From Natronolimnohabitans innermongolicus JCM 12255 (GTDB taxonomy: Archaea > Halobacteriota > Halobacteria > Halobacteriales > Natrialbaceae), in the NCBI RefSeq assembly GCF_000337215.1, contig NZ_AOHZ01000047.1, positions 62,001 to 126,000 of the forward strand: a stretch of DNA of 64,000 nucleotides. The letters run 5' to 3'. Position 1 is the first letter of the stretch. Each line of letters starts with the position of its first letter. This document shows, one piece after another, positions 1 through 64,000 of this stretch. Position numbers and translations under genes: made by a program. A model generated the notes under the pieces. That model searched no databases and had not been told where the DNA came from. It saw nothing but the letters and a program-made list of their open reading frames with translations.

Positions 1-1711
1 ATCGCGGCGCATCGGGATCGAACGGCCGCGCTAAGCTCTCGAAGGCTTTCTTCTTGTCCCAGCCCTGGAGTTTGCCGACCGCCGATTTGTCCTCGAGGTC
101 GTGATAGTCGAGTTTCGGCTCGGTGAGGTCCCACGCGTTCATCCCCTGTTCGGTGCGGAGGATGACGCTCGAGTACTCGTCGCTCGAACCGACGGAGCCG
201 ACGGTGATGTCCGAACAGAAGCCGGTGAAGTCGGCACACTCGTCACAGCCCTTGAGCGCGGCGTCGTGGAAGTTCTCGACGTCTTCCTCTACGATCATCT
301 CGCCGTCGTGATCGTAGACCATCAGCTTGCCGTGGAGGACGTCCATCTTGCCGATTTCGTCGGGCGAGACGTCGCGTTTCTCCTCGAGTTGCTCGCCGAT
401 GAGGCTGTAGTAGTTAAAGTTCTTCGTACACATCAGCGAGATCGTGTACTCGACCGCGCGGATGCCCTCGTTCTGTTTCTGGTAGTCCCACTCGAAGTCC
501 TGGAGCGCGCGGAGGCCTTCGATCTCGCAGGGCGTCCCCACGAGCGCGAGCGCGAGGTCGTCCCAGTCTTTGTCGGGAAGCTTGTGCTCCCACTGTTTGA
601 GGTCGAGGTTCCCCAGTGCGAGCGTCTGGTTGTAGACGGTGCCCGCATTCTCGATGAGTTCTTCTTCCGTGGTCGCGAGGAAGCTCTCGGCTTTCCAGGG
701 TTCGTCCTCGGATTCGGTTGCGATCAGCGCGCCGTCGATCTCGCCTTCCTCGAGTAACGTCGCGAGGATGCCGGTGACGACGCCGCCGTCCTGAGCGGCG
801 TCGGTCCAGTCGTCCTCGACCGTCGCGGAGAACTCCGTGATCGGGTCGCCGGCGCCTTTGACGTTGTCATCGCCGCCGGTGATCTTCCACTGGCGTTCGT
901 ACCGGAGGCCGCCGCGGGGACAGAAGTCCCAGCAGAGCGAACAGCCGGTACACATCTTGACGAGCTTTGGAAGGTCGTCCTCGCCGACGCCGATCGAGTC
1001 GGAGGGACAGGCGGCGACGCAGGTCCCACACTGGATACAACGGCCGTCGCCGATGACGGCCTCGTCCAGTTCCATGAACCAGGTCTTCTCGTCGGGCGTC
1101 TCGATGTCGTTCATCTCCGAGCGGATCGAGTACTCCGGCGTGTCGAGGTCGACGCCCTCGGGAACGCCGACGCGCGTGTCGGGGGCGTCGTCGTAGACGT
1201 CCTGGCTCACGTTCTCAGCGGGCTCGGTGAACTCGATGTCGCCGAGTTCGCCCGTCTCGTCGACGTTTGCAGCGCCCGCTCCGTCCGCGGCGATGCGCTT
1301 CTCGCCGCTCGAGTCAGCGTCGGCCGCGGGAGCCGTCTTCTCGCCGCACGTACAGGTGTCGGGCGAGCAGCTCTCGCCCTCACCGCCGGCGTCGATGGCG
1401 CCGTCGCGGGCGTGCTCGCTTCCTTCGCGGGAGCGCGGCGCAGCGCTGCCAGCGTCGGGGAACCGAACCGCTTCGTCGTCGTCGTCCGACTCCGGAACGC
1501 CCGGGAAATTGCGCTCCGAGGACCCGCTTCGCTCGTCCTCGCGGCTCGCGTGTCGCTTCTCGCTCGAGTTCCCGGGATCTTCGCGTCGCTTCGATCCCGC
1601 TGCTCCCGCTCGCTTCTTCGAGGACTCGCTTCGCTCGTCCTCGCGGCTCGCGGTTTCACCGCTCACTTTGTCCGAGACCTCCCTTCGGTCGGTCTCGCTA
1701 TCAATCCCCAT
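1..1711 (-). CDS. Coenzyme F420 hydrogenase/dehydrogenase beta-subunit family protein (FrhB/FpoF-like), 3' end outside window
   Basis: Iron-sulfur flavoprotein of the family that moves electrons between reduced F420 and iron-sulfur partners. The visible part is 570 residues and the C-terminus lies beyond the left edge. From about residue 225 there are two consecutive CxxCxxCxxxCP clusters (CIQCGTC and CTGCSLC), then FrhB N- and C-terminal domains with a third cysteine motif (CDEC...FCSDITVG). The first 220 residues are a low-complexity, charged, repeat-containing extension with a small CxxxxCxC motif, unusual for a family whose members mostly run 280-350 residues. The ATG overlaps the stop of the upstream siroheme reductase by 11 bases, so the two are probably co-translated. 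A partner role is inferred from this coupling. Confidence 0.85.
   Translation of the reverse strand, partial: MGIDSETDRREVSDKVSGETASREDERSESSKKRAGAAGSKRREDPGNSSEKRHASREDERSGSSERNFPGVPESDDDDEAVRFPDAGSAAPRSREGSEHARDGAIDAGGEGESCSPDTCTCGEKTAPAADADSSGEKRIAADGAGAANVDETGELGDIEFTEPAENVSQDVYDDAPDTRVGVPEGVDLDTPEYSIRSEMNDIETPDEKTWFMELDEAVIGDGRCIQCGTCVAACPSDSIGVGEDDLPKLVKMCTGCSLCWDFCPRGGLRYERQWKITGGDDNVKGAGDPITEFSATVEDDWTDAAQDGGVVTGILATLLEEGEIDGALIATESEDEPWKAESFLATTEEELIENAGTVYNQTLALGNLDLKQWEHKLPDKDWDDLALALVGTPCEIEGLRALQDFEWDYQKQNEGIRAVEYTISLMCTKNFNYYSLIGEQLEEKRDVSPDEIGKMDVLHGKLMVYDHDGEMIVEEDVENFHDAALKGCDECADFTGFCSDITVGSVGSSDEYSSVILRTEQGMNAWDLTEPKLDYHDLEDKSAVGKLQGWDKKKAFESLARPFDPDAPR
1517..1550. repeat. 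34-bp palindromic repeat, copy 1 (inside coding sequence)
   Basis: The unit starts cgaggac, continues cgcttcgctcg, then gtcctcg and ends with a gcggctcgcg tail. The arms CGAGGAC and GTCCTCG are reverse complements, so it can form a hairpin. It differs by one base from the copy at 1619-1652 and encodes ASREDERSGSS in the extension of the F420-family protein. Confidence 0.75.
1619..1652. repeat. 34-bp palindromic repeat, copy 2 (inside coding sequence)
   Basis: Second copy of the hairpin-forming unit seen at 1517-1550, in the same orientation and with a single mismatch. It encodes ASREDERSESS near residue 21 of the F420-family protein. Spacing between unit starts is 102 bp, so the reading frame is kept. 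Confidence 0.75.
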
Positions 1712-3401
1712 GGGCAACACCTCGTGCGACCGGGGCGTCGGCCCCTTGCATGATCCGTCGGAGTCGCTCGTTGTCGACGCGGCGGGTCCACTCGTAGAAC
1801 CGCTCGCCGTCGTCGCGCTCGTCGCCGTAGGCCTCAAAGAGTTGCTCGAGCGCCGGAAGCACCGACTGTGCGGGAACGGCGTTCTCTACCCAGTCTACGA
1901 ACTCGTTGTCGGCGCCCAGTGAGCCGCCGAGCCCGAAGTCCATCCCCTCGACGATGTTGTCGCCTTCCTCGTTGGTGCTGTTCTCGTCCTCGAGTTTGAC
2001 GGTCTCGCCGCGGAAGCCGATGTCGGCGATCTGGGGCTGGGCACACGAGGCCGAGCAGCCGGACATGTGCATCCTGATGGCGTCGATATCGTCGGGGACG
2101 TCGATACGTTCGTCGAGTTCGCGGGCCCAGCGTTTGGTTCGTTTCTTGGTCTCGATGATCGCGTAGTTACAGAACTCGTTGCCCGTACAGCCGACGGCGC
2201 CCCGCGAGAACGCACCGGGGTCCGGCTGGTAATCCTGGGCGAACGGCTCCGCCAGCAGGTCCTCGACGTTCTCCTCGGGGATGTGCGTGATGAGGAAGTT
2301 CTGGTCGGTCGCGAGGCGGACGGAGGCGTCCTCCGTGCCGTACTCCTTCGCGGCGCGAGCGGCCTCGGCGAACTCCTCGCCGCCCATGCGGCCGGCGATG
2401 ACGTTGAAGCCGACGTACGTGAGCCCGTCTTGCTTCTGGTCGTGGACGCCGACGTGGTCGCCCTGGTAGCCCTCCGTCAGCCCCTCGCCGCTTTCGGGGA
2501 GGTCGACGGTACAGCGGTCGCGGACCGCCTCCTCGAACGCCGAGGGGCCCATCTGCTCGACGAGGTAGCGCATGCGACAGACGCCGCGGTTGTTGCGGTC
2601 GCCGAGTTCCTTGAACGTCTGGGCGACGGCGCGACAGAACTCGACGGCGTCCTCGGGCTCGATGAAGACGTCGAGTTCGGAGGCCATCCGCGGGCCGTCG
2701 GAGAGGCCACCGCCGACGCGGGCGTGGAAGCCGTAGTGGTACTCGCCGCCCAGTTCTTTCTTCGCGGGAACCAGGCCGATGTCGTTGATCTGGGACTGCG
2801 CGCAGTCGTGGGCACAGCCCGTGATTGTGAGCTTGAACTTCCGTGGCAGGTTCGCGTACTCGCGATTGCCCGTGAAGAACTCCGAAACGGCGTCGACGAC
2901 CGGTTGTGCGTTGAAACACTCGTGGTCGCTGATGCCGGCCGCGGGACAACCCAGTACGTTCCGGGCCGAGTCGCCACAGCCCTGGACCGTCGTCAGGCCG
3001 ACCTCGTCGTAGCGGTCCCACATCTCCGGGACGTCCTCGATCCGGATCCAGTGTTTCTGGATGTCCTGTCGGGTCGTGATATCGAGGTAGGCGTCGCCCC
3101 AGAGTTCGTTTTGCTCCTCGCCGCCGTACTCCTCGGGAGCGACGGCCAGGTCGTCGGTCACTTCACCGATGACCGCGGCCTGCTCGGGCGTGAGCTTCCC
3201 GCCCGGGACCTTCGTCCGGATCATGAAGTATCCCTCCTGTTTCTGGGCGTACATGCCGGCCCACTTCAGGCGCTCCCACTCGCCGCCGCCGGCGCGCTCT
3301 TCGATTTCCTCGAAGGAAAGTCCGTCCTCGGCGTACTCGTAGACGTCGTCGATGACGTCGAGGGGGTGTTTGTTCTGCTTGTACTGCTCGGTCGTATTCA
3401 C
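1701..3401 (-). CDS. Siroheme-dependent nitrite/sulfite reductase, ferredoxin type
   Basis: Six-electron assimilatory reductase of nitrite to ammonia or sulfite to sulfide, 566 residues. The siroheme/4Fe-4S ligands are visible as C405-x5-C411 (CTGNEFC) and C449-x3-C453 (CSASC), matching the spacing of spinach nitrite reductase. The fold is duplicated, with an N-terminal half carrying GCAHDCAQ. The GTG at 3401 is preferred because it gives the N-terminus MNTTEQYKQNKHPLD and overlaps the stop of a 21-codon ORF as GTGA; a GTG three codons upstream is the alternative. The second siroheme reductase at the right edge (CTGTEFC...CTADCGQ) looks more like the haloarchaeal nitrite enzyme, so this copy may be the sulfite reductase. 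That assignment is inference. Confidence 0.9.
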   Translation of the reverse strand: MNTTEQYKQNKHPLDVIDDVYEYAEDGLSFEEIEERAGGGEWERLKWAGMYAQKQEGYFMIRTKVPGGKLTPEQAAVIGEVTDDLAVAPEEYGGEEQNELWGDAYLDITTRQDIQKHWIRIEDVPEMWDRYDEVGLTTVQGCGDSARNVLGCPAAGISDHECFNAQPVVDAVSEFFTGNREYANLPRKFKLTITGCAHDCAQSQINDIGLVPAKKELGGEYHYGFHARVGGGLSDGPRMASELDVFIEPEDAVEFCRAVAQTFKELGDRNNRGVCRMRYLVEQMGPSAFEEAVRDRCTVDLPESGEGLTEGYQGDHVGVHDQKQDGLTYVGFNVIAGRMGGEEFAEAARAAKEYGTEDASVRLATDQNFLITHIPEENVEDLLAEPFAQDYQPDPGAFSRGAVGCTGNEFCNYAIIETKKRTKRWARELDERIDVPDDIDAIRMHMSGCSASCAQPQIADIGFRGETVKLEDENSTNEEGDNIVEGMDFGLGGSLGADNEFVDWVENAVPAQSVLPALEQLFEAYGDERDDGERFYEWTRRVDNERLRRIMQGADAPVARGVAHGD

Positions 3402-3463
3402 TCGAACCACCGCCGGCGAGCGGCGCTGTCGTCCGACGTGGCCGTACCGTCACGAAAGACCAT
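3398..3463 (-). CDS. Possible 21-residue leader ORF before the siroheme reductase
   Basis: ATG at 3463 opens a 21-codon frame (MVFRDGTATSDDSAARRRWFE). Its TGA overlaps the GTG start of the downstream reductase as GTGA. A TATA-like tttacga on the minus strand lies 26 nt before the ATG, so a leaderless transcript would begin at this ORF. It may couple translation of the reductase or may simply be untranslated leader. No homologue is known to me. Confidence 0.35.
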   Translation of the reverse strand: MVFRDGTATSDDSAARRRWFE

Positions 3464-63302: not shown

Positions 63303-64000
63303 CTAGTCGTCCGACGGCGCCGCCGTCTCCTCGGTGGCCGCCGCGGCCGACTCCGTCTCCGCGAACGGATACCACGACTGTTTGGCGTCGTCCATGTACG
63401 GCGCCTCGAAGTCGGTTTCTTCGGGTTCACAGAACTCTATTAGCTGCTCGGTCGCCGTCGCTTCGACCCACTGACGGAACGTCTGTCCCGCTTTGCGGTG
63501 GGCGGCGAATGCCTCGAGGAGGTTCCGGATCGCACCGGGGGCCTCGTCGGCCGGCACGCGCTGTTGGACCCACTCGACGAACGATGGTTCTTCACCGATC
63601 CCGCCGCCGACGCCGATGTCGAACGCTTCGACCATCTCGCCGTTCTTCCGGGCGCGCATTCCCTGGAGACCGATGTCCGCGGTCATCGCCTGCCCGCAGT
63701 CGGCCGTACAGCCCGAGTAGTGCATCTTGATCTTCTCGACGTCGTCGGGGAGATCGACGTTTTCGTTGAGCCAGCGCAGCATGCGGGCCATCCGAGCTTT
63801 CGTCTCGGTCAGCGCGATCGAACAGAACTCCGTGCCGGTACAGGCCATCGCACCGCGCTCGAACGGGCTGGGTTCGGGCTGGTACTCCGAGAGCAGCGGT
63901 TCCGCGAGGAGATCCTCGAGGTCGTCCTCGTGGACGTCGACGACGACGGGGTTCTGGCGCCGGGTGAGCCGGAGTTCGCCGGAGCCGTACTCGTCCGCCA
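63303..64000 (-). CDS. Siroheme nitrite (or sulfite) reductase, N-terminal part outside window
   Basis: C-terminal 232 residues of a second ferredoxin-type siroheme reductase. Cluster ligands are visible in ACTGTEFCSIALTETK and SGCTADCGQAMTADIG. The CGQ after the last pair and the ADIGLQGMRARKNGE segment recall assimilatory nitrite reductase. An extra C-terminal extension of about 60 residues (WYPFAETES..., then an alanine/glutamate tail) distinguishes it from the copy at 1701. Its left-hand paralogue has the F420-family partner; this one's neighbours lie outside the window. Confidence 0.88.
   Translation of the reverse strand, partial: ADEYGSGELRLTRRQNPVVVDVHEDDLEDLLAEPLLSEYQPEPSPFERGAMACTGTEFCSIALTETKARMARMLRWLNENVDLPDDVEKIKMHYSGCTADCGQAMTADIGLQGMRARKNGEMVEAFDIGVGGGIGEEPSFVEWVQQRVPADEAPGAIRNLLEAFAAHRKAGQTFRQWVEATATEQLIEFCEPEETDFEAPYMDDAKQSWYPFAETESAAAATEETAAPSDD

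Follow-up and report, generated by a model that had tools for sequence, protein, structure and literature searches.

Two overlapping genes at the left end of a 64,000-nucleotide stretch of the draft genome of the haloarchaeon Natronolimnohabitans innermongolicus JCM 12255 (the window, G000:C47:62001-126000) encode a siroheme reductase (SIR) and an FrhB-family protein, which are fairly likely to constitute a two-subunit sulfite reductase that depends on reduced cofactor F420 (F420H2). The modules and motifs of both proteins, the overlap of their genes and the conservation of the pair were read from sequence, and the pair is real and conserved and probably functions as an F420H2:sulfite oxidoreductase. 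The pairing had already been predicted in haloarchaea in 2012 as a two-gene unit named aFsr, according to the accessible part of that paper (Susanti & Mukhopadhyay 2012; PMC3448663). The present analysis adds substrate discrimination, a rhodanese-fused branch, a second cysteine tetrad in the N-terminal half of SIR, and a tractable host, Haloferax mediterranei. A review of open haloarchaeal annotations records a single F420-dependent reaction reported for halophilic archaea and describes the role of the cofactor as enigmatic (PMC8305020); with FrhB in 126 of 392 Halobacteria genomes, the pair offers a concrete and widespread candidate for such a role.

The gene pair and its conservation

Both genes are located on the reverse strand, as are all features of the pair given below. 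The SIR gene (1701..3410) encodes a predicted aFsr-alpha-like siroheme sulfite reductase subunit of 569 amino acids when counted from GTG 3410 (alternative GTG, 3401), in which two NIR_SIR and two NIR_SIR_ferr domains were found with Pfam. The FrhB-family gene (1..1711), encoding a predicted aFsr-beta-like F420H2-oxidase subunit, starts at ATG 1711 and extends beyond the left edge of the window by its last 68 nt, including the stop at G000:C47:61933 (L002 9933), which gives a full-length protein of 592 amino acids. The overlap of 11 bases noted earlier between the two genes is exact (1701..1711; FrhB ATG at 1711-1709, SIR TGA at 1703-1701), and the genes occupy two reading frames that do not yield a single fused polypeptide.

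The assignment of SIR as a ferredoxin-type siroheme reductase with intact C405, C411, C449 and C453 was confirmed, these residues being C408, C414, C452 and C456 from GTG 3410; the earlier numbers differ by three because they were counted from the alternative GTG 3401, three codons in. The resulting CX5C...CX3C pattern of siroheme/Fe-S cysteines (2043..2189), described as the motif of aSir and Fsr (PMC10229431), is invariant in 32/32 aligned sequences. SIR aligns over its full length to plant nitrite reductases (NiR) and to MtNirA (1zj8), its best solved relatives, and only weakly to Fsr-C and Dsr, while a structural model made with AlphaFold2 (AF2; pLDDT 74) led to the NirA fold in Foldseek. 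Judged by these comparisons, SIR is a four-domain enzyme of the NirA/assimilatory (aSir) type and not of the Dsr type.

In the FrhB-like protein, both of the CxxCxxCxxxCP motifs that had been claimed were found; they lie in a Fer4 dicluster, an N-terminal 2x[4Fe-4S] ferredoxin domain (911..1060; residues 260-309 of P0001), which is followed by FrhB_FdhB_N and FrhB_FdhB_C (104..550) according to Pfam. Across an alignment of 27 FrhB sequences, the QDGG(V/L)VT motif, the TPC and MCT cysteines and a C..C pair show no or almost no variation. Ahead of the ferredoxin domain, the protein has a low-complexity N-terminal extension (1061..1711), about 88-260 amino acids long in the type A loci defined below, in which most members have a Cys motif and a block of conserved sequence precedes the ferredoxin domain. 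The AF2 model of this subunit was too poor (pLDDT 45) and was not used. Two direct repeats of 37 nt that are 95% identical (1514-1550 and 1616-1652) were also observed within the extension, where they encode REDERS-type peptides; their 20-nt core occurs at just two other places in the genome (at most 2 mismatches), and REDERS-like peptides are present in the same FrhB extension of other Natrialbaceae.

Conservation of the pair across Halobacteria, the lack of which would have refuted the original prediction, was surveyed in 392 genomes with FrhB counted by PF04432, which is present in 126 of them and in 47 of 86 genera. Among the 150 FrhB matches listed in these 126 genomes, 148 are directly downstream of SIR, on the same strand and within 6 kb, which excludes chance pairing. 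Two types of paired loci were distinguished. Type A, found in 118 genomes, includes the window pair and has a SIR at least 71% identical to that of the window, next to an FrhB open frame of 476-905 amino acids (mostly 500-770). Type B (30 loci in 29 genomes, 8 of which have type B only) has a SIR region about 45-54% identical within an open frame of about 800-980 amino acids, and an FrhB frame that is usually about 410-440 amino acids. An overlap of 8 or 11 nt between the FrhB ATG and the SIR stop is present in 12/12 type A loci sampled from whole genomes. Among 43 named haloarchaeal loci on GTDB contigs (Natrialbaceae, Haloarculaceae, Haladaptatus, Halarchaeum and others), 40 have the same overlaps, with a GTG at 8 nt in two more and one locus (L116) in which the frame scan gave no FrhB. 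These overlaps hold down to 71% SIR identity. The pair is also present on plasmid pHME505 of Haloferax mediterranei, as WP_004060645.1 and WP_004060643.1, with an 11 nt overlap in RefSeq's own annotation. As a separate observation, the SIR frame is broken next to an intact FrhB frame in three genomes, appearing as two shorter frames in G323 (L081) and with one internal TAA in G050 and G089, which represents either assembly errors or decay.

The near one-to-one linkage and the conservation of the overlap suggest a fixed stoichiometry of the two subunits. They thereby oppose an arrangement without a stable complex, in which SIR would use free ferredoxin and the FrhB-like protein would merely reduce that ferredoxin with F420H2. 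Such an arrangement would agree with the membership of SIR in the ferredoxin-dependent NirA/Sir class and with the occurrence of a second SIR in the genome that has no FrhB partner, but the FrhB subunit carries two ferredoxin clusters of its own, and we regard this alternative as unlikely.

Electron donor and substrate

F420H2 is the likely electron donor to the pair, since the FrhB core is closest to F420 enzymes, its motifs are kept, and the genome encodes cofE (F420 biosynthesis) and npdG (F420:NADP oxidoreductase), both above curated cut-offs. The closest phmmer matches of the core were the FrhB-family chain 8riu_B, Fsr (7np8/7npa), the Fsr relative 9tn7, and structures of FrhB. Some members of the FrhB family, such as the chlorophyll-type reductases, work without F420, and the FrhB-like protein could accordingly be an adapter for electron exchange with ferredoxin or a different carrier, without involvement of F420. 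This option gains from the match of the FrhB family model to Synechococcus among the controls, and from the phylogenetic tree, in which the haloarchaeal types A and B and the stand-alone type C form one clan apart from the methanogen sequences and far from FpoF, albeit with long branches and limited sampling; within this clan, type B is a single clade (99/96) and type C groups with type A sequences. Nevertheless, the best matches are to F420 enzymes (Fsr and FrhB), and F420 biosynthesis and NpdG are encoded in the genome, which makes an F420-independent adapter very unlikely.

With respect to the electron acceptor, the original prediction had named sulfite or nitrite. The anion site of Fsr consists of Arg, Arg, Lys and Lys (PMC10229431; PMC9295563), and the corresponding predicted sulfite-binding residues R65, R150, K191 and K193 of SIR (2832..3218), with K-F-K as the sulfite-type signature, are all kept in 31/31 type A enzymes; the type B equivalent, P-R-K-[F/L]-K, is kept in 7/7 inspected. 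Siroheme reductases adjacent to NasA have K-F-N in 9/9 cases (nine genomes). One of these enzymes is encoded at the right edge of the window (63303-64000, reverse strand, continuing at L138 9303-11180), and the neighboring NasA (L138 11512-13686) passes the haloarchaeal NasA model; together they mark the nitrate-assimilation locus of this genome. A complex of the same composition that physiologically reduces nitrite, comparable to Fsr group II of anaerobic methanotrophic archaea (ANME), would be in line with the RefSeq name of SIR (ferredoxin--nitrite reductase), with plant NiRs as its nearest solved structures, and with the frequent reduction of both anions by siroheme enzymes. However, K191-x-K193 is the sulfite type in all inspected enzymes of types A and B, the genome owns the separate NasA-linked K-F-N enzyme, and several pair-bearing genomes (e.g., G043, G045 and G064) are among those without a NasA match. 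Nitrite is therefore disfavored, and this alternative appears rather improbable. Sulfite is the predicted substrate on the basis of the one-residue K-x-K signature and the genomic context, and the nitrite part of the earlier claim was weakened.

Besides these two enzymes, the genome encodes a third SIR on contig C80 (G000:C80:21013-22242; L139 8872-10695), with K-W-K, the same N-terminal Cys tetrad as SIR and no FrhB partner, which is a possible ferredoxin-dependent sulfite reductase.

For the F420H2-dependent sulfite reductase proposed here we infer complex formation, donor, substrate and physiological purpose, and its mechanism can be envisaged as follows. The overlapping start would couple translation, such that the subunits are made together. 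The FrhB-like subunit would accept a hydride from F420H2 onto its own FAD and split it into single electrons, which would travel through the FrhB [4Fe-4S] cluster and subsequently both ferredoxin clusters at the N terminus before reaching the SIR subunit, where the siroheme-[4Fe-4S] center would perform the six-electron reduction of sulfite to sulfide. NpdG would regenerate F420H2 from NADPH, and the system may serve sulfide supply or sulfite detoxification.

Several observations weigh against this proposal. The distance of the haloarchaeal FrhB clan from characterized FpoF implies that the hydride donor could differ, and the same function could be performed without FrhB by the K-x-K SIR of contig C80. 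In Fsr group II, F420H2 drives the reduction of nitrite and not of sulfite (PMC9295563), indicating that sequence-based substrate calls can fail, and the Fsr of Methanocaldococcus jannaschii, a sulfite enzyme, has nitrite reductase activity as well (PMC10202398). Moreover, the literature searched contained no assay of any haloarchaeal aFsr, and sat-type ATP sulfurylase (PF01747) had no match in the genome of the window.

Sulfate assimilation as the physiological setting was unsupported, because this sulfurylase is missing here and in all FrhB-bearing genomes except one (G338). Matches to PAPS_reduct in the genome are weak, and the top protein matches CysD models below curated cut-offs. In aFsr, 'assimilatory' is a structural label according to the accessible text of PMC3448663, and an assimilatory role is unproven given the near absence of sat-type ATP sulfurylase from FrhB-bearing genomes. 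The PF01747 search found the enzyme in only 11 of the 392 Halobacteria genomes. Candidate sources of sulfite are thiosulfate, organosulfonates and environmental sulfite. Clustering of the neighborhoods of pair loci yielded no obvious recurrent sulfur gene as a further operon partner; the recurrent neighbors, an FtsY-like and a prefoldin-like protein, look like housekeeping functions as judged by eye.

Genetics is established in Haloferax mediterranei, which also has a separate nitrate-assimilation pathway. The presence of the pair on a plasmid of this species makes the question of F420 and sulfite directly testable.

Rhodanese-fused loci, stand-alone FrhB and the second cysteine tetrad

In type B reductases, the long N-terminal part preceding SIR reads as two rhodanese-like domains in 7/7 inspected, a tandem that was confirmed with Pfam in one protein (PF00581, two stretches), and the type B reductase of Natronococcus occultus, whose locus has the accessions WP_015323307.1/WP_015323306.1, is named rhodanese-like in RefSeq. 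The type B FrhB ATG abuts the SIR stop at offsets of -1 to +3. The fusion of a sulfur-transfer domain to SIR, with the FrhB partner retained, points to sulfur chemistry. Rhodanese-NirA fusions of Halobacteria have been grouped as cluster 195.2, with the FrhB partner unmentioned in the accessible part of that paper (PMC11237513), and they probably correspond to the alpha subunit encoded at the type B loci described here. A literature search at the level of titles, abstracts and chosen passages returned no paper on a triple link of rhodanese, sulfite reductase and F420 in haloarchaea. Further observations at type B loci (L069-L075, L141) are a conserved LNPARVHQYEEWC tail in which FrhB often ends, and nosZ adjoining the type B locus of Natronococcus occultus.

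Stand-alone FrhB genes (type C) with no siroheme reductase nearby were found in G105 and G242 (L076 4800-6083; L077). At L076, a FAD-binding oxidoreductase and a short-chain dehydrogenase adjoin on the same strand. On pHALXA01 of Halopiger xanaduensis, the stretch that matches type C carries no listed gene.

The N-terminal repeat of SIR contains a second Cys tetrad, C145/C155/C199/C203 (2802..2978), which is invariant in 31/31 type A enzymes and missing from the single bacterial K-x-N sequence aligned with them. Profile comparison of the two halves of SIR aligned C199-X3-C203 with C452-X3-C456. As read from the sequences, type B enzymes keep the last three cysteines with a variable first one, and within the genome of the window the K-x-K enzyme on contig C80 has 4/4 and the K-x-N reductase 1/4. 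The tetrad possibly binds an extra Fe-S cluster. Taken further, types A and B might form a two-branch haloarchaeal family of F420H2-driven sulfur oxyanion reductases, in which the rhodanese-fused branch would pass sulfane sulfur or sulfite (e.g., from thiosulfate) directly to siroheme, and in which the pseudo-symmetric Cys set (complete in A, at least 3/4 in B), unlike the aligned tobacco NiR, may hold an additional Fe-S cluster that takes electrons from the F420 module; this scenario is speculative and is put forward with low confidence. Both the branch with fused rhodanese domains and the second tetrad lead to specific, falsifiable predictions.

Comparison with known systems

The closest counterpart of the pair is aFsr, which combines an aSir-type alpha subunit with an adjacent beta subunit resembling the N-terminal part of Fsr (FrhB with two N-terminal ferredoxin-type [4Fe-4S] centers), and both features were found here. 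In the accessible part of the 2012 paper, a figure legend gives the species as Halogeometricum borinquense, Halorhabdus utahensis, Halalkalicoccus jeotgali and Haloterrigena turkmenica, and trees place the beta subunit with FpoF/FGltS(I)-alpha (PMC3448663); aFsr was still called putative in 2022 (PMC9295563). That prediction was made from few genomes, and the overlap, the K-x-K signature, the N-terminal Cys tetrad and the rhodanese branch are undescribed in the same part of the text.

MtNirA/SirA (1zj8) and plant ferredoxin-NiR (2akj, 3b0g) share the SIR fold and full-length alignment, but they are ferredoxin-dependent and have no FrhB partner, and the aligned tobacco NiR differs by K-x-N and by the lack of the N-terminal Cys tetrad. 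The FrhB-like subunit resembles FpoF/FqoF, FrhB and 8riu_B as a probable F420 module that contains FAD along with [4Fe-4S] clusters and is combined with varied partner enzymes, whereas the haloarchaeal types A, B and C are a separate clan in which type A has the long N-terminal extension.

Fsr group II, the F420-dependent nitrite reductase of ANME-2c (PMC9295563), is similarly an F420H2-driven siroheme oxyanion reductase; it is a fused protein, nitrite-specific with F420H2 and altered at the anion site (one Arg lost, others Lys), whereas the window SIR keeps the full sulfite-type set. Fsr group I (M. jannaschii, M. thermolithotrophicus; 7np8, 7npa) shares with the pair the F420H2-oxidase module, two N-terminal [4Fe-4S] clusters, a siroheme reductase and an identical set of four anion-binding residues, but it is a single chain with a Dsr-like Fsr-C and peripheral ferredoxin clusters, in contrast to the separate four-domain NirA/aSir-type gene described here. 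Hence, of the earlier suggestion of a split Fsr-like system, the conserved, overlapping unit of F420H2 oxidase and siroheme reductase was retained, and descent from Fsr was rejected because alignments and Foldseek place SIR on a different branch of sulfite reductases. As far as these comparisons reach, the pair parallels Fsr by analogy, its reductase half coming from another branch of the sulfite reductases.

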